A stretch of 44,453 nt of DNA from Phaeodactylibacter luteus (lineage in GTDB: Bacteria; Bacteroidota; Bacteroidia; Chitinophagales; Saprospiraceae): assembly GCF_007993045.1 (NCBI RefSeq), contig NZ_VOOR01000045.1, positions 1 to 44,453 of the forward strand, written 5' to 3'. The position numbers and the translations under genes are program-made. Under the pieces are notes generated by a model. It saw only the letters and a program-made list of their open reading frames with translations. It searched no databases and was not told the DNA's origin. Numbering within the stretch: position 1 is the stretch's first letter; the number at the start of each line of letters is the position of its first letter. Of this stretch, positions 11,916 through 33,303 are shown in pieces.

Positions 11916-11924
11916 CTTCTGAAG

Positions 11925-11999
11925 TGGGCGATGATGGATTCGAACCAACGACCCCCTGCTTGTAAGGCAGGTGCTCTAAACCAACTGAGCTAATCGCCC
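11925..11999 (-). tRNA. tRNA-Val (anticodon UAC), second copy in the transcript
   Basis: On the minus strand the acceptor arm GGGCGAT pairs with ATCGCCC. The D arm is AGCTCAGTTGGTTTAGAGC and the anticodon arm CCTGC-CTTACAA-GCAGG carries anticodon TAC. The T arm contains GGTTCGAATCC. The discriminator base is A and no CCA is encoded. The sequence is identical to the copy 75 bases upstream. Confidence 0.97.
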
Positions 12000-12074
12000 G
12001 TACTCAATATATTAGGACTGCCCGGGCGGGCAGGACAAGTGCAGCGTATCCTTTGATTAGGTTGCTGCTCTTGG

Positions 12075-12149
12075 TGGGCGATGATGGATTCGAACCAACG
12101 ACCCCCTGCTTGTAAGGCAGGTGCTCTAAACCAACTGAGCTAATCGCCC
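12075..12149 (-). tRNA. tRNA-Val (anticodon UAC), first copy in the transcript
   Basis: This is identical to the copy at 11925-11999: GGGCGAT/ATCGCCC acceptor stem, TAC anticodon, discriminator A, no encoded CCA. Both probably come from one promoter just upstream and are cut from a single precursor. Confidence 0.97.
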
Positions 12150-21406: not shown

Positions 21407-22672
21407 TTACCCATCTGAGAGCGTTTCCGATATATCGGTATTGCGGGCCTGTAGTGCAGGCAGGATAGCAGCAGCCAGCCCTATGCCCAGTGCGCCGCCC
21501 AGCAAGTACAACTCCTCCTGTAAAAAGTGTGCCCAAGAGAAATCGTACTGATAGGTTTCCCGCATCTGATCAGCTAACAAATACATGGCGCCGTGGCTGA
21601 GCCCTATGCCCAGCACATAGCCCAGCACCGCCAGCAACAAGCCTTCCAGCACGATAAGCGCCAAGAGCTTGCTGCGGGAAGCGCCCATAACCCGCATGAG
21701 GGCCAGCTCGTACCGCCGCTCTTTCAAAGAATTGTACAGGGAGATGAAAATGCTCAAGCCAGATACAATGATGATGACCATCGCCAGCCAGCGCAGCGCT
21801 TTGGTGCCTGTGCCCATCAGGCTGTACAGCCTGTTGATCTCGATAGCCGGGGTAGCAGCCTGCATCTCTGTATTCTCATTGATGGCACGCTGCATATTCA
21901 GGGCTTGTATGTTGTGCCCCTTAAATTGAATGAGCATAGATGTGATCTGCTTGTCCTGATAATCAAGCAGCCCCTTGGGATAGGGCTCGCCTGCCCCTTC
22001 GCTTTCGTGATCGTGGCCTTCGTGATCGTGGCTTTCGTGATCGTGGCTTTCGTGTACAGCCCAAAGGCTGGAAAAGCGGGTCAGCAGCAGCTGATCGGCC
22101 ACAGCGCCCGTAGGCTCAAGTATGCCTACAATTTTAAATGATTCGGCATCTTCGTGGACAAGGTCTTCATTCTGATCGAAACCGTGGGAGCTTTTGAAAG
22201 TATCGCCTATACTGAGCCCCAGCTTGCTGGCCACGCCAGCCCCAGCGACGACCTCCATTGTCCTTTGCCACATCGCCCCCTCAGCGAGCACTGCACCGTA
22301 GAGCGCTAGAAAAGCCGGCTCAGTACCTACAATGCGGTGCCCACGGTAGCTGTCGCCCAATGAAAGGGGGATGGCACTTTCGATAATTGGATGGCCCGGG
22401 CGCAGGAAGGGGGCGGCATCTGAGATGTTGATATTGCCGGTAGGGGCATCGATATGGTACATGCTGCTTAGGATAAGCTGAAGCGGGCTGCCCTTTGCGC
22501 CCACGACCAGGTCTACCCCGGCGAGGTTTTTGGAGAACTTCTCCTGTAGCTGATCATTGAGCACCAGCAGCAAGGAAATGAGCCCTACGCCCAGCCCAAA
22601 AAGGACTAAGCTGAGCCCCATATTGAGCGGCTTGTTGGTGAGGTTTTTCCAACTCAATCTTAGGATATTCAT
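21407..22672 (-). CDS. FtsX/MacB-type ABC transporter permease with His-rich loop
   Basis: The 421-residue permease has an N-terminal membrane helix (about 18-38), a large periplasmic domain, and three C-terminal helices, with the FtsX region starting KALRWLAMVIIIVSGLSIFISLYNSLKERRYELALMRVMGAS. The segment VDLVVGAKGSPLQLILSSMYHIDAPTGNI is characteristic of permeases related to the zinc-regulated MacB-like transporter of Pseudomonas (PA4065 type). A tandem repeat in the gene encodes a loop at about residues 204-222 made of HESHDHESHDHEGHDHE, likely metal-binding. The start codon overlaps the ATPase stop by four bases (ATGA), so the two are translationally coupled. Confidence 0.9.
   Translation of the reverse strand: MNILRLSWKNLTNKPLNMGLSLVLFGLGVGLISLLLVLNDQLQEKFSKNLAGVDLVVGAKGSPLQLILSSMYHIDAPTGNINISDAAPFLRPGHPIIESAIPLSLGDSYRGHRIVGTEPAFLALYGAVLAEGAMWQRTMEVVAGAGVASKLGLSIGDTFKSSHGFDQNEDLVHEDAESFKIVGILEPTGAVADQLLLTRFSSLWAVHESHDHESHDHEGHDHESEGAGEPYPKGLLDYQDKQITSMLIQFKGHNIQALNMQRAINENTEMQAATPAIEINRLYSLMGTGTKALRWLAMVIIIVSGLSIFISLYNSLKERRYELALMRVMGASRSKLLALIVLEGLLLAVLGYVLGIGLSHGAMYLLADQMRETYQYDFSWAHFLQEELYLLGGALGIGLAAAILPALQARNTDISETLSDG
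22005..22055. repeat. 15-bp tandem repeat inside the permease gene
   Basis: The unit TCGTGATCGTGGCTT is repeated about three and a half times with near-perfect identity. It encodes the HESHD/HEGHD units of the histidine-rich loop, so its copy number would set the number of histidines. Confidence 0.8.
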
Positions 22673-23304
22673 GGCTGTCCGATGGTAATTTGGTTAGGAA
22701 TGCCGCCCTTCAGCCGGGCGTCGTGGGTTACAATAAGCAGGGTAGCATCTACCGCCCGAGCCTGCTCTTCAAGCAGCTCCAGCACCTGCCCGCAGTTGCG
22801 GTCGTCCAGCGCAGAAGTAGGCTCATCAGCCAGGATAATGGCTGGCTGATTGATGATTGCCCGGGCAATAGAAGCCCGCTGCTTTTCGCCTACGCTAAGT
22901 TGTTGAGGGCGTGCGCTGCCCTTGTGCCCCAGTCCGAGGCGCTCCAACAAATTGCGGATGCGGGCTCGGTCGGGCCGCACCCCTGCAAGGTGCTGCGCCA
23001 ATGCCAAGTTATCGGACACGGTCAGGCTCTGCACAAAGTGGGCGGTCTGGAAAATGATACCGATCTGCTGCCCGCGGAAGCGGTCTAAGGCAGCGCTCGA
23101 TAAGCTGCTGAGGGCAGTGCCATTGATCATGACCTCGCCCGCCTGAGGCGCGCGCAGGCCTCCAAGCAGATGGAGCAGGGTAGTTTTGCCACTGCCAGAT
23201 TGCCCCAAGATAAGGCAGTGCTCTCCTTTCTGGCAGTGGATGTCGGGGAAAGACAGGCCCTGCCCAGGAGCATAGGCATAGCTAAGGTTGGTGGTTTTTA
23301 GCAT
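22669..23304 (-). CDS. ABC transporter ATP-binding protein (LolD/MacB type)
   Basis: The 211-residue ATPase has Walker A GQSGSGKT (34-41), the signature LSVGE (136-140), Walker B ILADE (157-161) and a switch histidine in IVTHDARL. It belongs to the MacB/LolD/FtsE group that drives FtsX-like permeases by a mechanical, non-translocating mode. It is the first gene of a two-gene operon with the overlapping permease. No periplasmic adaptor protein is encoded beside it. Confidence 0.93.
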   Translation of the reverse strand: MLKTTNLSYAYAPGQGLSFPDIHCQKGEHCLILGQSGSGKTTLLHLLGGLRAPQAGEVMINGTALSSLSSAALDRFRGQQIGIIFQTAHFVQSLTVSDNLALAQHLAGVRPDRARIRNLLERLGLGHKGSARPQQLSVGEKQRASIARAIINQPAIILADEPTSALDDRNCGQVLELLEEQARAVDATLLIVTHDARLKGGIPNQITIGQP

Positions 23305-23423
23305 GTGAGGTAGTTTCCGGATTTTGTGCCCTCAATATCCGGGTTTTTAATGGGCTGGCAAAAGATAACGGCAGGAGTTGCAGAGTACGACAGCCCGGGC
23401 GGCCTGCCCTGCTTGGCCGAATA

Positions 23424-23454
23424 TTGGAATTTTGGATAAAAAAGGTTAGTATTG
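23424..23454 (+). promoter_or_regulatory. Putative ileS leader promoter (P1)
   Basis: TTG (23424-23426), a 20-base spacer and TAGTATTG (23447-23454) match the Bacteroidota -33/-7 pattern with one mismatch in the -7 box. Transcription would start about 10-15 bases before the leader peptide ATG. Confidence 0.55.
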
Positions 23455-23471
23455 TGGCTCACAAATCAAGA

Positions 23472-23540
23472 ATGAGCGTGCCAACAGCAATACGGATCAG
23501 CTACATTATTATCATCCCCGGCCCACCGCCAGGCTGCTGA
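23472..23540 (+). CDS. Candidate isoleucine-rich leader peptide of ileS
   Basis: A 22-codon reading frame begins MSVPTAIRISYIIIIPG and ends in a proline-rich tail before TGA. Six of 22 codons are isoleucine: ATA, ATC and then four in a row (23505-23516). It stands 96 bases upstream of the isoleucyl-tRNA synthetase gene and is followed by a terminator hairpin, the arrangement of a ribosome-stalling attenuator. It is too short to be found by ordinary gene callers. Chance occurrence cannot be excluded without comparison to relatives, but the four Ile run directly ahead of ileS is hard to dismiss. Confidence 0.65.
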   Translation: MSVPTAIRISYIIIIPGPPPGC

Positions 23541-23565
23541 CTGTTTGCCCTAAAGACACCTCAGG

Positions 23566-23601
23566 AAAGCTCTGGCGAATACAGTTTGCCAGAGCTTTTT
23601 T
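23566..23601 (+). terminator. Candidate attenuator terminator upstream of ileS
   Basis: AAAGCTCTGGC (23566-23576) pairs with GCCAGAGCTTT (23588-23598), extended inward by GAA/TTT to a 5-base loop and followed by six T residues. The upstream segment GCCAGGCT (23528-23535), inside the last leader codons, can pair with AGCTCTGGC (23568-23576) with one bulge, giving a competing antiterminator. Confidence 0.8.
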
Positions 23602-23616
23602 AGTTTCCTATTTTTG
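23586..23616 (+). promoter_or_regulatory. Putative second ileS promoter (P2)
   Basis: TTG (23586-23588), exactly 20 bases, then TATTTTTG (23609-23616) form a good Bacteroidota promoter overlapping the terminator's 3' arm. It would give a transcript starting about 15 bases before the ileS ATG and bypassing the attenuator. Confidence 0.5.
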
Positions 23617-23636
23617 CGCCGTCAAAATACGCAGCG

Positions 23637-26600
23637 ATGTACAAAGAATACAAAGGCCTCAACCTCCCGCAAATTGATCAGGACATCCTGAAGTTCTGGG
23701 AGGAGCACAACATCTTCCAGCAAAGCGTGGAGCAGCGCCCTGCTGAAAACAGCTTCGTTTTCTATGAAGGGCCGCCTTCCGCCAACGGCAAACCAGGCAT
23801 CCACCACGTTATGGCCCGTACGGTGAAGGACCTTTTCTGCCGCTTCCACAGCATGAAAGGGCAGCGCGTAGAACGCAAAGGGGGCTGGGACACCCACGGC
23901 CTGCCTATTGAGCTCAACGTGGAAAAAGAGCTCGGCATCACCAAAGAGGACATCGGCTCTAAAATCTCGGTAGATGAGTACAACGCCAAATGCCGGGAAA
24001 CCGTCATGCGGTACAAAGATATGTGGGACAACATCACCCGCAAAATGGGCTATTGGGTAGACCTCGACAACCCCTATATCACTTTCGAGAACAACTATAT
24101 CGAAACGGTTTGGTGGCTGCTGCAGCAGCTTTACCAAAAGGGGCTGCTGTACAAGGGCTTCACCATTCAGCCGTTCTCCCCCGCTGCCGGCACCGGGCTA
24201 AGCTCTCATGAGCTGAATATGCCGGGCACGTACAAGGATATCAAAGACATCTCCGCCGTTGCCCAGTTCAAGATCAAAGGCACAGCGGACGAGTACTTCC
24301 TCGCCTGGACGACCACTCCGTGGACACTGCCCTCCAACACCGCGCTGGCGGTGGGCAAAGACATCACTTACGTAAAAGTGCGCGCCTACAACCGCTACAC
24401 CGGGCAGCTGGGCACTGTCATCCTCGCCAAGGACCGCCTCAGCCACTACTTCACTGAGGCCAAGCCTGAACTACAGCCGGAAGAAGTGAAAGCAGGCAAT
24501 AAGCCTATCCCTTACCTTGAAGTGCTGGGCGAGGTGAAAGGGCACGAGCTTGAAGGCATGGAGTACGAACAGCTGATGGGCTATGTACAGCCTGAAAAAA
24601 CTGCTTTCAAAGTCTTGATCGGCGATTTCGTCTCTACCGATGACGGCACTGGCATTGTGCACATCGCCCCTACCTTTGGCGCAGATGACTTCAGGGTGGC
24701 CGCCAAATACGGTATCCCGCCGCTTTTGGTGAAAGATGAAGAGGGCAACAGTGGCCCCCTCGTAGACCGTCAGGGGCGCTTCGTGAAAGAGGTCACCGAC
24801 TTTGCAGGGCGCTACGTGAAAGACTACGGGCAGGAGGAAGAACGGCCTGTAGATGCCGATATCGTCATCAAGCTCAAAGAAGAGAACAAGCTGTTCCATT
24901 CCGAAAAGTACCTGCACTCCTACCCCCACTGCTGGCGCACCGACCGCCCTGTGCTCTACTACCCGCTCGACAGCTGGTTCGTCAAAGCTACTGCTGCCAA
25001 AGAGCGGATGTACGAGCTCAACAAGACCATCAACTGGAAGCCGGCTGCGACTGGAGAGAACCGCTTTGGCAAGTGGCTGGAGAACCTGCAGGACTGGAAC
25101 CTCTCCCGCTCTCGCTACTGGGGCATCCCGCTCCCGATCTGGCGTACGGAAGATGCTAAATCAGAGAAATGCATCGGCTCCGTAGAAGAGCTGCGGCAAG
25201 AGATTGAAAAAGCCAATCAGGCGCTTGGGCTGCAACAACAGGCCCCCAAGGACCTCCACAGGCCCTATATCGATGAGGTAGTACTGGTGAGCGAGGACGG
25301 GCAGCCTATGAAGCGGGAAACGGATCTGATCGACGTTTGGTTCGACTCCGGCTCTATGCCCTACGCGCAGTGGCACTACCCTTTCGAAAACAAGGAGGTC
25401 TTCGAGCGCAAGTTCCCGGCCAACTTCATCGCCGAAGGGGTAGATCAAACCCGGGGCTGGTTTTACACCCTGCACGCGATCGCGACCATGGTGTTCGATA
25501 GCGTAGCTTTCAAAAACGTAGTATCCAACGGGCTGGTCTTGGATGCAGATGGCAATAAAATGTCCAAAAGCAAGGGCAATGTCATCGACCCCTTCGGAGC
25601 TATTGAGCAATATGGGGCCGATGCCGTGCGGTGGTACATGATGGCCAACGCCAACCCTTGGGACAACCTGAAATTCGACCTCAACGGCGTAGGCGAGGTG
25701 CAGCGCAAGTTCTTTGGCACCCTGTACAATACCTACTCTTTCTTTTCGCTGTATGCGAATATCGACCAATTTGACAATGCTGCCCCTCAAGTCCCCCTGA
25801 AAACGCGCCCGGAGATTGATCAGTGGATCATCAGCCTGCTCAACAGCCTGGTGAAGGATACGGAAGCAGACTATGCCAACTATGAACCTACACAGGCTGC
25901 GCGCAAGATTCAGAGCTTCGTGACCGACAACCTCAGCAACTGGTACGTCCGCCTTTGCCGCCGCCGCTTCTGGAAGCCTGCTCAACAGCAGAACGGGCAG
26001 GCAGCTGGCATGGATGCCGATAAACTGGCGGCCTATCAAACGCTGTACGAGTGCCTCCTAACCGTCTCTAAGCTGATCGCACCGGTATCGCCCTTCTTTG
26101 CCGACTGGCTGTACCAGAACCTCAACTCAGCGACCAAGCTGGAAAGCCATGCCTCTGTGCACCTCGCCGATTTCCCTTCCGTTTCCGGCAGCGCCATTGA
26201 TAAAGCACTGGAACAGCGGATGGACTACGCTCAGCGCATTTCCTCTCTTGTCTTCGCTTTGCGCAAAAAGGAAGACCTGAGGGTGCGCCAGCCTTTGCAA
26301 AAAATCATGCTGCCCGTGCTCGACCCCTCCTTTAGAGCGCAGGTGGAGCAGGTGAGCGAGCTGATTGCATCGGAAGTGAACGTAAAAGCTATCGAGTACC
26401 TGGACGACACCTCGGGCGTACTGAAAAAGCGCATCAAGCCCAACTTCAAAACGCTCGGCCGCCGGCTGGGCAAGGATATGAAGCTGGCAGCGGGGGCTAT
26501 CGCGAAGTTCTCCCAAGAGGATATCGCCAACCTGGAAAAAGCCGGCACCTACACCCTCAATGCCAATGGCAACAGCTATGAGCTTACCCTGGAAGACTTC

Positions 26601-26948
26601 GAGATCACAGCAGAAGATATCCCTGGCCTGCTCGTTGCCAACGATGGCCCTCTGACTGTCGCTTTGGATGTAACCCTGACCCCTGAGCTCGAAGCGGAAG
26701 GTATGGCGCGGGATATCGTCAACCGCATTCAGAATATCCGTAAGGACAGCAATTTTGAGGTGACCGATCGTATCGCTGTACAACTGCAGGGCCACGATGC
26801 GCTGAACAGTGCAGTACGCCATTTCGGTGATTACATCAAAGCGGAAACGCTCGCCAACAGCCTTGACCTCCGGCCGGAAGTGCCCGGCGGGCAAGAGATT
26901 GAGTTGCCAGGCGGCGTGAACGTTCAGATACTGGTCAGCCGGGTTTAA
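23637..26948 (+). CDS. ileS: Isoleucyl-tRNA synthetase, type 2 (GXHH variant)
   Basis: The 1103-residue class I synthetase charges tRNA-Ile. The KMSKS loop is intact (641-645). A CP1 editing domain follows the DTHGLPIELNVEKELGI segment, and a long C-terminal anticodon-binding region completes it. Length and motifs fit the eukaryote-like IleRS2 group common in Bacteroidota. The first signature motif reads G54-I55-H56-H57 (GKPGIHHVM) instead of HXGH, that is, the first and third residues are swapped. This swap has been reported to give IleRS2 extreme mupirocin resistance. No second ileS is seen in the window. The gene is preceded by the leader peptide and terminator and followed by its own terminator. 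Confidence 0.97.
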   Translation: MYKEYKGLNLPQIDQDILKFWEEHNIFQQSVEQRPAENSFVFYEGPPSANGKPGIHHVMARTVKDLFCRFHSMKGQRVERKGGWDTHGLPIELNVEKELGITKEDIGSKISVDEYNAKCRETVMRYKDMWDNITRKMGYWVDLDNPYITFENNYIETVWWLLQQLYQKGLLYKGFTIQPFSPAAGTGLSSHELNMPGTYKDIKDISAVAQFKIKGTADEYFLAWTTTPWTLPSNTALAVGKDITYVKVRAYNRYTGQLGTVILAKDRLSHYFTEAKPELQPEEVKAGNKPIPYLEVLGEVKGHELEGMEYEQLMGYVQPEKTAFKVLIGDFVSTDDGTGIVHIAPTFGADDFRVAAKYGIPPLLVKDEEGNSGPLVDRQGRFVKEVTDFAGRYVKDYGQEEERPVDADIVIKLKEENKLFHSEKYLHSYPHCWRTDRPVLYYPLDSWFVKATAAKERMYELNKTINWKPAATGENRFGKWLENLQDWNLSRSRYWGIPLPIWRTEDAKSEKCIGSVEELRQEIEKANQALGLQQQAPKDLHRPYIDEVVLVSEDGQPMKRETDLIDVWFDSGSMPYAQWHYPFENKEVFERKFPANFIAEGVDQTRGWFYTLHAIATMVFDSVAFKNVVSNGLVLDADGNKMSKSKGNVIDPFGAIEQYGADAVRWYMMANANPWDNLKFDLNGVGEVQRKFFGTLYNTYSFFSLYANIDQFDNAAPQVPLKTRPEIDQWIISLLNSLVKDTEADYANYEPTQAARKIQSFVTDNLSNWYVRLCRRRFWKPAQQQNGQAAGMDADKLAAYQTLYECLLTVSKLIAPVSPFFADWLYQNLNSATKLESHASVHLADFPSVSGSAIDKALEQRMDYAQRISSLVFALRKKEDLRVRQPLQKIMLPVLDPSFRAQVEQVSELIASEVNVKAIEYLDDTSGVLKKRIKPNFKTLGRRLGKDMKLAAGAIAKFSQEDIANLEKAGTYTLNANGNSYELTLEDFEITAEDIPGLLVANDGPLTVALDVTLTPELEAEGMARDIVNRIQNIRKDSNFEVTDRIAVQLQGHDALNSAVRHFGDYIKAETLANSLDLRPEVPGGQEIELPGGVNVQILVSRV

Positions 26949-27272: not shown

Positions 27273-27456
27273 GGGCGCAAACCAGATTGTCGTTTTTCTG
27301 GATGGGGCCTGCCCCTGCCAACGGGCAGGTGCCGCTATGCTGCGGGGCTCGCTGTCCGCTCGGCCCTAACGGGCTTGCCACCCCTTCGCAGCGCTAGGCC
27401 AATGCCAGGCTAAAGCTAGAAAAACATAAACACCTGCGACATTTTGGTTTACGCCC
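27273..27456 (+). repeat. Intergenic MITE-like repeat, copy D
   Basis: This 184-bp copy has both termini well preserved: GGGCGCAAACCAGATTG at the left and TTGGTTTACGCCC at the right. The right terminus overlaps the end of the Fic gene: the GGGGCGTAA of the repeat on the minus strand encodes the last Gly-Ala and the stop codon of Fic. It lies between the convergent ileS and fic genes. Confidence 0.85.
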
Positions 27457-28510
27457 CTTTTACCAAATAAATCGTAGCCTTGCCGTCACCAATTTTTTCA
27501 ATTACTCCTTCTCGATGTAAGTAAAGCATATCCTTTTTGATCGTATGAATGGATTCTTGTTTCATGAATTCAGCAACATCACTCGTTTTCACAGGTTCGT
27601 TTTTTCGAATGAAGGCCATGACTATTCTTTGCCGCTCATTTAGATAAGGGCCTTTGCTTTTATATCTCGAATATTTCTCTTCCAGTTTCTGGATTAGGAT
27701 TTCCAAGCTTTCTAGAAAGAAAATCATCCATTTATCAATAATTTCATTTTCTGAATACCGATGTTTTTGAGCATCCATTAGTACTTGATAATAGCGTTGC
27801 TTTTCTTTTTCAATTTGGTTTTCAAAAGAGACGTATTGAATAAACGGATAATCGTTTTTCATTAGGAGTAGGGTAGTAAGTAATCTAGACAATCTCCCAT
27901 TACCATCTTGAAAAGGGTGAATGGATAAGAATTCATAGACAAAGGCTCCAATAATGATCAAAGGATGGATTTCATTGGACTGAAGATTATCATTGGCCCA
28001 GATAATCAAATCATCCATTTCCTTTTTAACAAGATAAGGTTCTGAGGTATTGAACATTATTCGCTGCTCACCTCCCGGATATGTTGCCACTACCTTATTT
28101 GATAACTGTTTATAATCCCCCTTATGCGTTTGATCTTTACCACTGTATTTCAAGAGTTGATTATGCAGATTGAAGATATTAGATTCATTAAGATCTATTC
28201 CAGAATAGTTTTCCAGGATGATTTCTAATACATCATAGTAACCAAAAACTTCTTGTTCGTCTCTGGTCTCAAGTTTATTGATTTTGATATTTGCCAATAA
28301 GGTCTCTACTTCTTCATTGGTCAGTGTAGCCCCTTCAATTCTAGTTGAAGATCCGATACTTTGGATAGTAGCAATTTTTCGTAGTTCTCTTAGGTATCTA
28401 TTTTCCTCTTTTTCAATAGCCAACCACTTCCCCTTGAAAGAATCAATGAGCCCAATCTTGTTGATTATTTTTTGGGTTGTAGGGAAATCAAACCTTAGCT
28501 TTTTATCCAT
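27449..28510 (-). CDS. Fic family protein (class II, self-inhibited)
   Basis: The 353-residue protein has the Fic active site HPFQDGNGRLSR with catalytic H198, and upstream an inhibitory helix motif S55-T-R-I-E59-G60 ([S/T]xxxE[G/N]) in the N-terminal region, which defines a class II Fic enzyme. A winged-helix region (ERQRIVMAFIRKNEPVKTSDVAEFM) closes the C-terminus. Such proteins usually transfer AMP to hydroxyl side chains of target proteins, with the Glu of the inhibitory helix blocking ATP. The gene is AT-rich, unlike the backbone. It has its own good promoter, and its final codons lie in repeat copy D. Confidence 0.93.
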   Translation of the reverse strand: MDKKLRFDFPTTQKIINKIGLIDSFKGKWLAIEKEENRYLRELRKIATIQSIGSSTRIEGATLTNEEVETLLANIKINKLETRDEQEVFGYYDVLEIILENYSGIDLNESNIFNLHNQLLKYSGKDQTHKGDYKQLSNKVVATYPGGEQRIMFNTSEPYLVKKEMDDLIIWANDNLQSNEIHPLIIIGAFVYEFLSIHPFQDGNGRLSRLLTTLLLMKNDYPFIQYVSFENQIEKEKQRYYQVLMDAQKHRYSENEIIDKWMIFFLESLEILIQKLEEKYSRYKSKGPYLNERQRIVMAFIRKNEPVKTSDVAEFMKQESIHTIKKDMLYLHREGVIEKIGDGKATIYLVKGA

Positions 28511-28529
28511 TACTTATCCGAATTTTATC

Positions 28530-28560
28530 CAAAAGTAAGTGTTTTTTGGGGACGGGCCAA
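28530..28560 (-). promoter_or_regulatory. Promoter of the fic gene
   Basis: On the minus strand TTG (28560-28558), exactly 20 bases, then TACTTTTG (28537-28530) match the Bacteroidota promoter. The start would be about 14 bases before the fic ATG. Confidence 0.65.
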
Positions 28561-28574
28561 GGCAAGGCGGTCTT

Positions 28575-28618
28575 TATTTTATCTGTATTTTATCTGTATT
28601 TTATCTGTATTTTATCTG
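28575..28618. repeat. Tandem 11-bp repeat, four units
   Basis: TATTTTATCTG occurs four times in a row without a mismatch, in the gap between the TPR gene and the fic promoter. Confidence 0.9.
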
Positions 28619-28630
28619 ATTGACAGGCTT

Positions 28631-28700
28631 GCCTGCAACGGTTGGGCTAAACGCAGTAGCGACCAAATGGGAGCTATTGGCGTTTTAGCCTTTGTTAGGC
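28631..28700 (-). repeat. attC-like imperfect palindrome after the TPR gene
   Basis: On the minus strand it starts GCCTAAC, matching the integron R'' box RYYYAAC, and ends CGTTGCAGGC, a degenerate R' box. The inner arms GGCTAAAACGC and GCGTTTAGCC pair with one bulge, and there is a short spacer. It encodes the last residues and stop codon of the TPR protein. Length (70 bp) and layout fit a cassette attachment site, but no integron integrase is in view. Confidence 0.55.
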
Positions 28701-30262
28701 ACAGATTTTCCTTTTTTGTAAGTTTCAATAATTTTCTTTTTCAAAATATCTACTTCCAAGAATCCACTATTTTCAGGAATTTGGCTTACTGCCTCCATTA
28801 TCGGTTCTACATATTCAGACTTAGCAAATATTTCTTCTCTTGCATAATTCAATATTGCTATCCAATTTAATTCACTGTTGCCGATTTGTTTAGTTTTTTC
28901 TATTGCTTCCATATAAAGCCTTCTACCTCCTTCTTCGTTACCACTACGAAACATAATTAACCCTCTTGTTGCTCCTATACATATCCTAGTTGAACTTTCG
29001 ATTCGTTCGTAGTTACTAATTCTTCCCAATGCTGCTAAAGCTTCGATAGTATTATTTTTTTGAGCATATGCATAAGCGAGATTGTTCAAAATTAAAGGGT
29101 CGTGTGGATGACTCATTTCCCCTGCCTTTAAAAACATTATTGATTTATCTTGGTCTCCTAAGATTGTACTTGCTAAATTTGAAGCAAATATCAATGGGCG
29201 TTTTGAAAAAGGCATATCCAAAAACCATTTAGCTGCATTTTCTAACGAATCATCAAACTTTTGTTTTTGAAAGCTATCTAATGCAATTGCCTCATAATTA
29301 TTTTCTACCCGAAATTCTTCTGGATTTAAATCAAATCTACTATCTTTTGTAGACGCCCATTCTATTTGAGCAAGTGTGTTATCATTCGGATTAATTAAAG
29401 CTTTATCAAAGAAAGTCTTACTTTTTTTATTACTACCATTTAACAACTCTACCGTCGCTATCCCACTCGCTAGTTCTGTAAAAGAAAAAGGAGCTACCTT
29501 GTTTGAAGAAATCATTTGCATTCCTTTCTTAATGAATTTTGAATGCTTATTTAATATCGTCGAAACGGCTATTTCTGCTGATAATAACCAAGGATCATAT
29601 TTGGTTATAGGGTTTTTTGTCAGAATTCGATATATATGCTGTAAATGATCATTATTATCTGAAGCATAATGAGTATATAGTCTTGTTGCTGACCTTAGAA
29701 CAAATCTATTATTGGGAGAAAGATTTAAAGCAATATTTATAAAGTGAAGAGCCTTCTGTTCTTGCCCAAGGATTGAGTAATAACGAGAAAGTTCAACATA
29801 GGCTATTGAGTTTGAGGGGGCTTTTTTTATTACTTTTTTTAGACTTCTTATCTTCTGATGAAGCGGTTCAGGATTAATAGAAGAAAGGATAGTTTCTATG
29901 TCAGAGTTGATTAATGCTGATTTAGCATCTTTTTTATTCTGGGAGGGATTAATCACTCTTTCAGCCAAAGATACCTGCGAATAACTAGCGTTATTTTTGT
30001 TGCGTAGGATATATTTGGCTGCTTTAATTACACTTTTATTATCTAATTGATTGTTTACAATTGCTGCACTTAAAAGATCAGATGCAAATGTTACTCCGCT
30101 GTTTAACTCCCAATCAATAATATACTCTTCTATTGAGGTAGGTGATCGTTGCTCTCTCCTCTCAAGCTGGAATGAGTCCAATTCTCCTAATACTGTTGTT
30201 TTCCCAAAACTTCTCCAGTTTGGTACAACTCTTCTATCTTCTGTACTAAATAAGTTTGCCAA
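28685..30262 (-). CDS. TPR-like repeat protein paired with a protein kinase
   Basis: I do not recognise a named family for this 525-residue protein. It is largely helical with tetratricopeptide-like units, for example SIAYVELSRYYSILGQEQKALHFINIALNLSPNN and PLILNNLAYAYAQKNNTIEALAALGRI. The N-terminus (MANLFSTEDRRVVPNWRSFGKTTVLGELDS) is conserved-looking, with no signal peptide or membrane helix. It starts 4 bases after the kinase stop, so the two are one operon and likely partners (substrate, scaffold or sensor). Composition is AT-rich. Its last codons lie in the attC-like element. Confidence 0.7.
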   Translation of the reverse strand: MANLFSTEDRRVVPNWRSFGKTTVLGELDSFQLERREQRSPTSIEEYIIDWELNSGVTFASDLLSAAIVNNQLDNKSVIKAAKYILRNKNNASYSQVSLAERVINPSQNKKDAKSALINSDIETILSSINPEPLHQKIRSLKKVIKKAPSNSIAYVELSRYYSILGQEQKALHFINIALNLSPNNRFVLRSATRLYTHYASDNNDHLQHIYRILTKNPITKYDPWLLSAEIAVSTILNKHSKFIKKGMQMISSNKVAPFSFTELASGIATVELLNGSNKKSKTFFDKALINPNDNTLAQIEWASTKDSRFDLNPEEFRVENNYEAIALDSFQKQKFDDSLENAAKWFLDMPFSKRPLIFASNLASTILGDQDKSIMFLKAGEMSHPHDPLILNNLAYAYAQKNNTIEALAALGRISNYERIESSTRICIGATRGLIMFRSGNEEGGRRLYMEAIEKTKQIGNSELNWIAILNYAREEIFAKSEYVEPIMEAVSQIPENSGFLEVDILKKKIIETYKKGKSVPNKG

Positions 30263-30266
30263 ATGA

Positions 30267-31319
30267 TTAATTGTTTACAGCTATTTCAGCTTTTCTTTTT
30301 AAATAATCTAAGCGTGAAATAAACCTTTCTAAGTTAAAATTACTTCCAATTGAAGTTATTGTTTTCGGATGTCCTCTTTTTTCGGGAAACGGGTTGCACA
30401 AATATTCAACAAGCTTTTTCAATTCTACTCTATCCTTATATTCTTTAATATTCTCCTCAAATTCGTCTAAAGCAGATGAGAATCCATTTTCTAAGTAAGG
30501 TATTAATTCTTCATAAGTTCCATTCCATACTTCCCAGCTAAAATTATGAGGAATATTCTTTCTTAATAAAGCTGACATGCTTATTCCCGAAAAATAGAAC
30601 GTGACTAAACTTCCCAACAAATAACAATCAGTTGCGAAGACTCTCTTTTTCCAATCCTTTTCGTAATAACCATACATTATTTCAGGAGGTGCATAGGTAT
30701 TGTCACCTGAAAATACCATCTTGTTATAAGGTCCATCGATATCTCTACAGATTGAACGACCTAGATCACCAATTTTACTTTCCTTAGACAGATATACTAA
30801 GACATTAGATGGTTTTAAGTCTTGATGAGTTACTTCAACCGCATGAAGTTGTTTCAATCCAATCGCAATGTCATGTAAAGATTTTAATCGCCAAGCATAG
30901 TCTAGTTTTTTAGAAAAATCTAATTTCTTTCTAACATCTCCATCTGCTAAATCAAAAATCAAATAAGGTACAATAGAAATAGCATAACCTGGAATCATTT
31001 CCTCATCTGCAACCTTAACAAATGCAACCTTAGTTACATATTTATTTTTGCAATGTTCAGAAAGATCTCTTTCATAACGATATGCAGTTAACATGTCATT
31101 CATGACATCAACAACTTTTCTGTTTGGATCAGATATTGTCAAAAATTTTGAGAAATCAAACGCTTTCAAAAAACAAGTTTCTCCGTCTTTTTCGACCAAA
31201 TAGCAAACCGAGAAAAAAGACCCTGTCTGATTATCTGTTTTCTTAATTTTCTCTTTTACAAACCATCCAGAAGATAGGGTTCGATTTAATAAATTATGAG
31301 CAGCATTTTCTGTGTTCAT
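30267..31319 (-). CDS. Eukaryotic-like serine/threonine protein kinase
   Basis: This 350-residue cytoplasmic kinase has the ATP lysine K52 (CFLKAF), a catalytic loop HQDLKPSN (H165, D167, K169, N172; HQD in place of HRD), a metal-binding DLG (D185) in place of DFG and an APPE segment, so all catalytic residues needed for phosphotransfer are present. It has no membrane helix, PASTA or other sensor domain. It is immediately upstream of the TPR gene. Neighbours are a restriction-modification pair and a Fic gene in an AT-rich island, a setting typical of defence genes, but no known defence system with this exact pair comes to mind. Confidence 0.88.
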   Translation of the reverse strand: MNTENAAHNLLNRTLSSGWFVKEKIKKTDNQTGSFFSVCYLVEKDGETCFLKAFDFSKFLTISDPNRKVVDVMNDMLTAYRYERDLSEHCKNKYVTKVAFVKVADEEMIPGYAISIVPYLIFDLADGDVRKKLDFSKKLDYAWRLKSLHDIAIGLKQLHAVEVTHQDLKPSNVLVYLSKESKIGDLGRSICRDIDGPYNKMVFSGDNTYAPPEIMYGYYEKDWKKRVFATDCYLLGSLVTFYFSGISMSALLRKNIPHNFSWEVWNGTYEELIPYLENGFSSALDEFEENIKEYKDRVELKKLVEYLCNPFPEKRGHPKTITSIGSNFNLERFISRLDYLKRKAEIAVNN

Positions 31320-31347
31320 GGATTACTTATTTTCCTTTTTTATTTGT

Positions 31348-31414
31348 GCCTAACGGTTAGTATATGAAGCGTAGCATCCCGATAGGTGCTATGATTTTAC
31401 ATACATTGTTAGCC
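31348..31414 (-). repeat. attC-like imperfect palindrome after the methyltransferase gene
   Basis: On the minus strand it opens GGCTAACAATGTATG and closes CATATACTAACCGTTAGGC. The end GTTAGGC is a perfect R' box (GTTRRRY), and the start differs from RYYYAAC by one base. Arms ATAGCACC and GATGCTAC flank a short spacer. It codes the last eight residues and stop codon of the methyltransferase. It is nearly the same length (67 bp) as the element after the TPR gene. Confidence 0.55.
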
Positions 31415-32372
31415 GCTTTTGTTCTTCTAATGCTAGTGTCAATTGTTCAGGAATGCTATAATCTTTTGGTTTTGAAGTCAGTTGGGATTCATCCGAAGCA
31501 ATTCTTGATTTCATTTCAGCATTCGAAATGCTATCAGGTAATGGAATATTTGAGAGTAGTGCTTCATATACTGCATTCCTATTTGATTCTTTTCCTCCAA
31601 CGTGATAAAAATGTTCCTTTGTTGTTACGAAACAATCTTTCCAAACATCAAAAACATAGTCGTTTATTCGATACTTATTACTGAGCCAAGTTGAAAGAAT
31701 GAAATTTGCTCCAGATTCAGTTAATCCATTTTTCAGTAAAATTTCATCCTCTTCTGACCAAGAATCAAAATAATCAACGTGTCTTCCTATATATGGTGGG
31801 TCTGAATAAACAAAATCATTTGGCTGAATTTCTTCCAATGTACTTTTGAAGTCTTGATTTTTAAAAGTGTAATCTCCACTTTCAATAATTTGACTTATGT
31901 TTTCAACTTGATTAGTGATTTTAGTTACAAGGGCTTGAGCAAATCTGTTTGGCTTTTTGCAAAAAGGGACATTAAAACCGCCCTTTTTATTAAAACGCAT
32001 CATTCCATTAAAGCAAGAACGACTTAAAAAAAGAAAGTCAAGAGGATTTCCGTTTGTATTAAATCTATTTCTTAATTCATAGTAATGCTCCCCTTCAGAT
32101 TTTAAGAGCTTTTCACCTTCAGTAATTAAATGTTGCTTAACTAGTCTACTTGTAATTTCTTTATTTTTCAGAGCATTGTAGAAATTAATTAAATGAGGAT
32201 TACTATCACACATTAAAGCTTTCTTAGGTCGAACATTAAAGGCAACAACACCTGTACCCATAAATGGCTCAACCCATCTGTCATATTCTATTTCTTCTAC
32301 GTTTGAAGAAATCCATTCAACAAGTTTAGTTTTTATTCCTTGTGACTTTATTGGTGGTACAAATACTTTCAT
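31389..32372 (-). CDS. DNA adenine-N6 methyltransferase, M.EcoRV-like
   Basis: The 327-residue Dam-type (D12 class) methyltransferase begins with [19 protein letters not shown], close to M.EcoRV. The SAM-binding segment [13 protein letters not shown] follows at about 36-50, and the catalytic DPPY lies at 191-194 ([14 protein letters not shown]). It should methylate the first adenine of GATATC and so protect the host from the adjacent nuclease. The ATG overlaps the nuclease stop by four bases. The C-terminus is longer than I recall for M.EcoRV, with the last residues encoded by the attC-like element. Confidence 0.93.
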
Positions 32373-33277
32373 TTTTTTGGTTTTCTTTTTGCTCCTTTAG
32401 CGACAACTTTATCAACTAAATCAGTTCGTCCTTTAAATTCAAGAAAGTCCCAAATGTTGGTTACTTTAACAGTCTTACCATCTTTAATCATTGTGGCAGT
32501 TCCATAATTCATCCAATATTCATCAAACCAATCTTCTCCGAGTTTGCTAAATACTCCGTTACCGTTTTTTAAATCTTCTATATCTTTTATTGAACCAATA
32601 TTAGCAGTATTACCTGAGCCTTGACTATCGCTTGCTATCTTCCATTTTGGAGCTGCAAAAAAGTCAAAATCTTTAATGACTGAGGTTATTGATTTAAGGT
32701 TTTCAACTTTAGTAACTTCTCGTTCTCCTATTGGGTCGTTCCCATTTCCGTATTCTTCTTCAAGTTCGTTCACTTGAAAAATTTCTGTTTCGGCTAAATC
32801 ATCAAAATCGGCTCTTGTGTAAATAATTCCTAAACAATAATGACCTGAATACTGGTTGTACGGAAACTGAATGTTTTTATCCTTATCACGTTCTTTGAAA
32901 TATGCTCCGTGACTACCAAGCGTAAAACCTGCTGATTTGTTATTTCTCCTAAATGTCGTTTTTAAATCAAGAGCAAATTTGATTTCGTCATTTTCCTTAT
33001 GAACAAAAGTTAAGTCAGGATACCAATTTTGGTGTTCTGCAAGTATTATTTTATAGCCTGAATTGTCTGCGAATCTCAAAATTTCAGGAAAAATGTGAAT
33101 TTCTAAAATTTTGGAAACGATTTTAGTGTCTGACGAAATGGTGTAAATGTTCTTGTAAACATCTATAAATCCTTTTATAGTCCATTCACCTGTTTCTGTC
33201 GAAACATACTTCTGTAATTCGTCTACAAATCCAGCTAAGGATTTCTCAAATTCTTCTATATATTGCTTTTTGTTCAT
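32369..33277 (-). CDS. Type II restriction endonuclease, EcoRV family
   Basis: The 302-residue protein has the EcoRV catalytic set with identical spacing: D88 (YPDLTF), D104 and K106 (LDLKTTF), counted from the ATG at 33277. The sequence-reading R-loop [13 protein letters not shown] is nearly that of EcoRV. The segments [10 protein letters not shown] and [18 protein letters not shown] also fit. It should cleave GATATC to blunt ends. It is about 55 residues longer than EcoRV, mostly in an insertion at about 155-200 and in the C-terminus. The ATG at 33277 is preferred to a TTG at 33298 that would lie inside the -7 element. It is the first gene of the restriction-modification operon; no separate controller gene is seen. 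Confidence 0.93.
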
Positions 33278-33295
33278 TTGCTTTTTTAGTATTCC

Positions 33296-33303
33296 CAAAG
33301 GTA
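33296..33303 (-). promoter_or_regulatory. Putative -7 element of the restriction-modification operon
   Basis: On the minus strand TACCTTTG matches TAnnTTTG, about 19 bases before the ATG at 33277. No TTG is found at the usual distance. Confidence 0.45.

Follow-up and report, generated by a model that had tools for sequence, protein, structure and literature searches.

The ileS leader region

The stretch of DNA analysed here, called the window, comprises 44,453 nucleotides (nt) of contig NZ_VOOR01000045.1 of Phaeodactylibacter luteus and carries ileS, the gene for isoleucine--tRNA ligase, behind a short open reading frame (ORF) rich in isoleucine (Ile) codons and an intrinsic terminator. The initial annotation, made from the letters alone, had read this arrangement as a leader-peptide attenuator of ileS. 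That the gene behind the leader is ileS is borne out by an equivalog match of the window protein to TIGR00392 (1006.9 bits against a cut-off of 621.4). The protein also gets scores with the MupA and MupB models, at values well short of their cut-offs, and mupirocin may therefore work badly as a means of isoleucine starvation in this species. The 22-codon ORF lies where it had been placed, with all six Ile codons, at 23490, at 23496 and as a run of four at 23505-23516. The terminator is also present, its start at 23563 instead of the 23566 given before, and the hairpin spanning 23563-23601 has 18 pairs and −24.0 kcal/mol. The upstream segment described as complementary to the terminator 5' arm, at 23528-23535, was recovered as 23527-23535 and forms an antiterminator duplex of −16.3 kcal/mol with 23568-23570 and 23572-23577, so that the earlier coordinates were right within three bases. 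Three features come in addition to those described before: a protector pairing between segments 1 and 2, a promoter-like site preceding the leader and another such box at 23609-23616 (Table 1). The four segments are numbered as in trp, with the Ile codons as 1, the region around the stop codon as 2 and the terminator arms as 3 and 4.

Table 1. Features of the ileS leader region and its flanking genes, in window coordinates
Feature	Position	Strand	Description	Support
P1	23424-23454	+	promoter-like; TTG 23424-23426, 20 nt, TAGTATTG 23447-23454	one mismatch to TAnnTTTG
Leader ORF	23472-23540	+	MSVPTAIRISYIIIIPGPPPGC, 22 sense codons, ATG 23472, stop TGA 23538-23540	
Segment 1	23487-23501	+	GCAATACGGATCAGC; pairs with 23536-23548 (protector hairpin); includes the first two Ile codons	duplex −15.7 kcal/mol
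Segment 2	23527-23548	+	CGCCAGGCT 23527-23535, antiterminator 5' strand; GCTGACTGTTTGC 23536-23548, protector hairpin 3' strand; leader stop codon inside	
Segment 3	23563-23580	+	terminator 5' arm; 23568-23570 and 23572-23577, antiterminator 3' strand	
Segment 4	23584-23601	+	terminator 3' arm, T6 at its end	
P2	23609-23616	+	promoter-like, TATTTTTG, between terminator and ileS, 20 nt before ileS	exact TAnnTTTG
ileS	23637-26948	+	isoleucine--tRNA ligase, proposed regulated gene	TIGR00392 equivalog above cut-off; PF00133
ABC-transporter ATPase	22669-23304	−	upstream neighbour, divergent from ileS	PF00005

As the upstream neighbour of the window is divergent, the terminator here is not the end of an upstream gene, an origin that is thereby ruled out for the window's own neighbour. 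The overall folding energy of the window leader is unremarkable (z −1.57; 12 of 200 shuffles equally good), and the case for the element is a comparative one, drawn across relatives and not from its own folding energy.

Conservation of the leader and its competing helices

Genomes of relatives from the same taxonomic family are called family genomes in the following, and G and L numbers label genomes and loci. Upstream DNA of ileS was collected from 126 family genomes, among 266 with an ileS match, and searched with a strict detector (ORF of 7-32 amino acids, at least five Ile in nine codons, hairpin and T-run at most 90 nt after the stop, at most 700 nt from ileS) and with a looser rule asking for at least four Ile. 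The strict detector found a leader in 59/126 genomes, compared to 0/126 in the reverse-complemented upstreams and 0/126 in each of three dinucleotide shuffles, and the looser rule in 64/126 compared to 0/126 reverse-complemented; these controls rule out a chance origin of leader plus terminator. Together with a far leader in G005, displaced by an insertion to 854 nt from ileS, the looser rule places the leader in 65/126 genomes and 38 of 72 genera, which is a lower bound because the leader of G008 sits about 950 nt upstream of ileS. Relatives devoid of an Ile-rich ORF or a paired structure, the outcome named beforehand as speaking against attenuation, were thus not the result, and the attenuation reading gains support from an ORF, a terminator and an antiterminator that are conserved and covary in relatives. 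The distribution follows genera closely: 18 of the 19 positive genera with at least two members are uniform, and 15 genera with at least two members have no leader.

Among the named loci, 25/77 were positive by the strict rule, and the closest cultured relative among them is Phaeodactylibacter xiamenensis KD52 (L180), with an 87% identical IleS; none of the 31 loci L228 and L230-L259, mostly of Bacteroides and Prevotella types, has a leader by this rule. Outside the family, the looser rule gave 0/27 for class loci (the best 27 of 233 class genomes with a match) and 0/14 for order loci. Among the Bacteroidota loci examined, those with the element in front of ileS all belong to a single family, and only some of its members have it. 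A covariance model of the ileS leader scored the leader of P. luteus at 52.1 bits, with the next best match in this genome at 27, and gave matches in 52/119 family genomes, with ileS behind the match in 47, among them G322, whose ORF has three Ile only. One further match (G020) lies at a contig end, and four (G016, G291, G297 and G308) do not stand before ileS. Across the phylum 17/395 genomes matched, including P. luteus itself; five of the other 16 were examined. In three of them Ile-rich leaders precede genes for a class IV aminotransferase and an IlvD-family protein, and two have no leader. Compensation for lost isoleucine synthesis was considered as a role of the leader and is not supported, as leaders are commoner in genomes with ilvC (40/48 leader genomes compared to 37/71 others among 119 family genomes; Fisher p 0.0005, uncorrected for phylogeny).

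Leaders were compared in a set of 70, after removal of a duplicate and of a wrong ORF from the 72 found; the genome with the wrong ORF, G396, has a right one as well. The core III-x-III, with x mostly serine (Ser), occurs in 30/70 peptides; MKTFQHIIISIIITSLPCNLR from Flavilitoribacter nigricans (L185) is an example, and MYQAAIIIISIITTPAHPPGC from P. xiamenensis deviates slightly from the pattern. In the densest nine-codon windows Ile makes up 64.8% of residues, in a set that the detector had selected for Ile, and valine (Val) is found somewhere in 16/70 leaders. Codon-position variability was not used, being circular at positions 1 and 2 in a set chosen by Ile.

Many relatives carry CAATCTG at or near the leader stop codon, complementary to CAGATTG of the terminator 5' arm, and after it TGCTAAT or one of its variants, able to pair with ATTAGCA within the Ile run; the Ser codon of IIISIII is plausibly kept by this 1:2 pairing. 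When leaders and terminators were permuted between genomes, the mean antiterminator energy weakened from −15.3 kcal/mol in the native combinations to −12.1 kcal/mol, and that of the 1:2 helix from −11.3 to −8.9 kcal/mol, with 0/5000 permutations as good in either case; both results hold in 33 diverse leaders (<70% identity). In an alignment of 61 rows (nine atypical leaders left out; 45 of the rows diverse) pairing reaches 97.4% in the terminator, which has 71 double-change cells. In the antiterminator core it is 74.2% compared to 68.0% in shuffles, with 31 double-change cells compared to 15.5. A second alignment, A1, has 26 rows hand-picked from diverse, typical leaders, and its percentages therefore flatter the structures: 98.1% paired and 37 double-change cells for the terminator, 83.4% and 11 for the antiterminator (shuffle mean 4.1), and 81.8% and 12 for the 1:2 helix (shuffle mean 3.7). 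For each helix of A1 the double-change count was reached by 0/500 shuffles.

Folding was analysed with the transcript cut before the terminator 3' arm and a 30-nt stretch held unpaired as the ribosome footprint. Pairing of the inner 5' arm on the antiterminator side exceeded a probability of 0.5 in 67/70 leaders with the ribosome in the middle of the Ile run, in 16/70 with the ribosome at the stop codon and in 32/70 with none. The respective values for the window are 0.60, 0.30 and 0.59, and their direction is right for an attenuator. The hallmarks of trp-type control were found together: a leader ORF with codons for the cognate amino acid, an intrinsic terminator before the gene (with the neighbouring gene checked in the window), an antiterminator exclusive of the terminator in swap, covariation and folding analyses, and a competing 1:2 helix that a stalled ribosome would mask.

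Promoter-like sites and the proposed switch

In Bacteroidota promoters the −7 box reads TAnnTTTG. An exact box lies within 60 nt upstream of the leader ORF in 41/70 leaders, whereas each of five control windows farther upstream gave 0-4 of 67-69, and 28 of these 41 sites have a TTG exactly 20 nt upstream of the P1-type box. Transcripts from P1 would start near 23460, about a dozen bases 5' of the leader ORF. Between terminator and ileS an exact box occurs in 54/70 leaders, with 4.0 expected in base-shuffled segments, so that part of ileS transcription probably bypasses attenuation, and the likely arrangement is a basal promoter of ileS with an attenuated one upstream of it. In the window, TTG 23586-23588 of the terminator 3' arm stands 20 nt before the P2 box, where a −33 element would be expected. 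A TTG 18-22 nt from the P2-type box falls within the terminator 3' arm in 20/70 leaders, and if box and arm TTG are both near the hairpin their spacing is 19-21 nt in 18/23. A dependence of P2 on the arm TTG was rejected, as a box near the hairpin is equally common with (23/42) and without TTG (15/28), and the double use of the arm is therefore suggestive only. A two-promoter attenuator, in which the terminator 3' arm would both end the P1 transcript and carry the −33 element of an unattenuated ileS promoter, as a cassette that may also be copied before foreign genes, is put forward tentatively and as something we rather doubt; if true, such a nested promoter would be a compact mix of basal supply of an essential enzyme and an emergency boost.

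From the ORF, the three competing helices with their covariation, the promoter-like boxes and the conservation of all these before ileS, we infer transcription from P1 and P2, translation of and stalling on the leader, termination or read-through, and a response to isoleucine. RNA polymerase would start at P1, and a ribosome would start on the leader ORF. With ample Ile-tRNA it should reach the stop codon at 23538-23540 and cover segment 2, allowing the terminator (3:4) to form; with scarce Ile-tRNA it should stall on the Ile run (23505), covering segment 1 and leaving segment 2 free, which could then pair with the terminator 5' arm (2:3) and let the polymerase read through into ileS. P2, located after the terminator, would provide a floor of ileS transcript outside attenuation. 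The most likely effect of this switch is to raise IleS output when charged isoleucine tRNA runs low.

Several observations weigh against this mechanism. By the strict rule 67/126 family genomes have no leader, of which at least two (G005 and G008) have one farther upstream. Column support for the 1:2 helix is moderate, its percentage paired in A1 being reached by 12/500 shuffles. The untranslated RNA of the window already favours the antiterminator (0.59, with a value of 0.01 in G019), so that the 1:2 helix protects less well here than in some relatives. Terminator arms swapped between genomes still favour pairing in the stalled state in 161/210 combinations (mean 0.63 compared to 0.74 for native ones), as the arms resemble one another throughout the family; taken by itself the fold test is therefore unspecific, and the argument depends on the permutation and covariation tests. 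Finally, P2 may leave attenuation minor. The attenuator would then be real, and most ileS mRNA would start at P2 with a short, mostly terminated leader RNA beside it, as could be read from the excess of exact boxes between terminator and ileS, from the window's P2 box, which stands 20 nt upstream of ileS and is itself preceded by a TTG at a distance of 20 nt, and from the same type of box within 60 nt of ileS in 35/62 family genomes in which no leader was detected. Leader, terminator and competing pairs are nevertheless kept across 38 genera, which would be hard to understand without a regulatory payoff, and we regard so small a role as improbable.

The conserved ORF could also have another function: it might couple its translation to that of ileS or allow reinitiation there, encode an arrest peptide, or work through a trans-acting peptide or small RNA, and a trans role has been reported for the leader peptide peTrpL (PMC7298713, as far as the available part of the paper goes). 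The ends of the ileS leader peptides vary widely whereas the RNA pairings hold, and the leader stop codon is 96 nt from ileS in the window and up to several hundred nt in relatives, with the terminator in between; such functions are very unlikely. In Firmicutes, ileS is preceded by T-boxes. It is also a T-box target in several Actinobacteria according to the accessible part of PMC1262725, and control by a T-box or another ligand-binding riboswitch was therefore considered. The Rfam scan of the window returned only tRNA at gathering score and no T-box, and the four matches within 23400-23700 (E 3.5-8.4) fall well short of their gathering scores and include no T-box. With no Rfam match at the leader, a T-box, riboswitch or other Rfam family was rejected as its identity, and the chance of such control is minute.

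From the permutation and covariation results, the codon content and the conservation before ileS, the element is very probably a trp-type transcription attenuator that works through the ribosome and adjusts ileS expression to the amount of charged isoleucyl-tRNA available.

Related leaders, neighbouring DNA and known systems

Upstreams of IlvD-family genes (PF00920; L343-L361) contain short ORFs rich in Ile, Val or leucine (Leu), followed by a terminator, in 10/20 family genomes, these residues having been required by the detector. The leaders are in tandem in three genomes (G021, G339 and G359), all 13 peptides contain Val, and the weakest case, G315, has a hairpin of −12.2; no leader was found before the PF00920 gene of P. 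luteus itself (L342). As PF00920 also covers 6-phosphogluconate dehydratase, not every such gene need be ilvD. Upstreams of valS had a leader in 0/18 cases, two of them shortened by contig ends, and the one detector match, in G010, resembles by eye the end of an ordinary protein gene; a general synthetase device was therefore rejected. Outside the family, Ile-rich leader ORFs and terminators precede a class IV aminotransferase and an IlvD-family gene at L331, L333 and L334 (G627, G609 and G781), probably an ilvE-ilvD pair, and G781 has two tandem leader copies, one of them MKTNMNIIIISIIIRSFE. The Pfam families of the two genes were checked for L331, and no Rfam family matched the three leaders. 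A search of relatives with the L331 aminotransferase matched 6/23 genomes, mostly distantly, and was not used.

The regulatory region of ileS is rearranged in some relatives. In G321 (L325) a Fic gene inserted before ileS stands between two copies of a 227-bp stretch of this region (97% identity), the first of which ends within nine bases of the Fic gene start, and in G377 (L285) a 156-bp repeat (96%) flanks another gene. Between terminator and ileS are inserted a VapB antitoxin gene with its PIN-domain partner in G005 (L184), a lone VapB antitoxin gene in G004 (L207) and a Uma2 gene in G311 (L323). In the window itself, a block 3' of ileS on the minus strand (27449-33298) encodes a Fic protein, a TPR protein, a protein kinase, a D12-class adenine methyltransferase and an EcoRV-type restriction endonuclease, and is possibly a restriction-modification or defence island. 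Tandem tRNA-Val genes (anticodon TAC) are located on the minus strand at 11924-11999 and 12072-12149.

A leader-peptide attenuator of a synthetase gene is known from pheST of E. coli. The available part of PMC1262725 names pheST and describes leader-peptide attenuators of trpS and leuS in Streptomyces, and from what is accessible of the respective papers a uORFC-8-2 motif leader precedes cysS of Rhodobacterales (PMC8632094) and a leader attenuator hisZ and hisS* of bacilli (PMC2965389). Like the ileS leader, all of them have an ORF with cognate codons before a synthetase gene together with attenuator structures. The ileS leader differs in its synthetase and phylum and in the extra promoter-like box between terminator and gene.

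Among biosynthetic leaders, ilvL of E. coli is an ilv leader attenuator. A leader attenuator enriched in Ile, Leu and Val codons is described for ilvB of Corynebacterium in the accessible portions of PMC11109978 and PMC10272879. The ilv leaders share branched-chain codons, terminator and antiterminator with the ileS leader; they control biosynthesis, whereas the ileS leader is nearly Ile only and stands before a synthetase gene. The Bacteroid-trp RNA, which we take to be a Trp-codon attenuator, belongs to another amino acid and operon, and Rfam scans gave no RF01692 match at the ileS leader. In the part of PMC2864571 at hand this RNA (RF01692) is listed as probably cis-regulatory in Bacteroidetes without being a switch. 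Phylum and proposed mechanism are shared with candidates for leader-peptide attenuation upstream of amino-acid biosynthesis operons of Flavobacterium psychrophilum (PMC9723704), the available text of which names biosynthesis operons and no synthetase.

Attenuation seems little studied in this phylum. The isoleucyl-tRNA synthetase gene is known mainly as a target of the T-box, in which the RNA binds tRNA directly and which has no leader ORF. The ileS T-boxes of Actinobacteria (PMC1262725, in the part available) and Firmicutes share with the leader described here the gene and the signal, uncharged tRNA-Ile. No report of an ileS leader attenuator was found in the open-licence literature, and the survey of aminoacyl-tRNA operon attenuation (Lopatovskaya and colleagues 2010) could contain one; from the literature found, the ileS leader therefore represents a known mechanism on a newly noted gene and not a new kind. 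With it, isoleucyl-tRNA synthetase would join the synthetases whose genes have been proposed to be under ribosome-stalling control; together with the leaders containing Ile and Val before IlvD-family genes, the ileS leader suggests a wider sensing of branched-chain amino acids by leader peptides.

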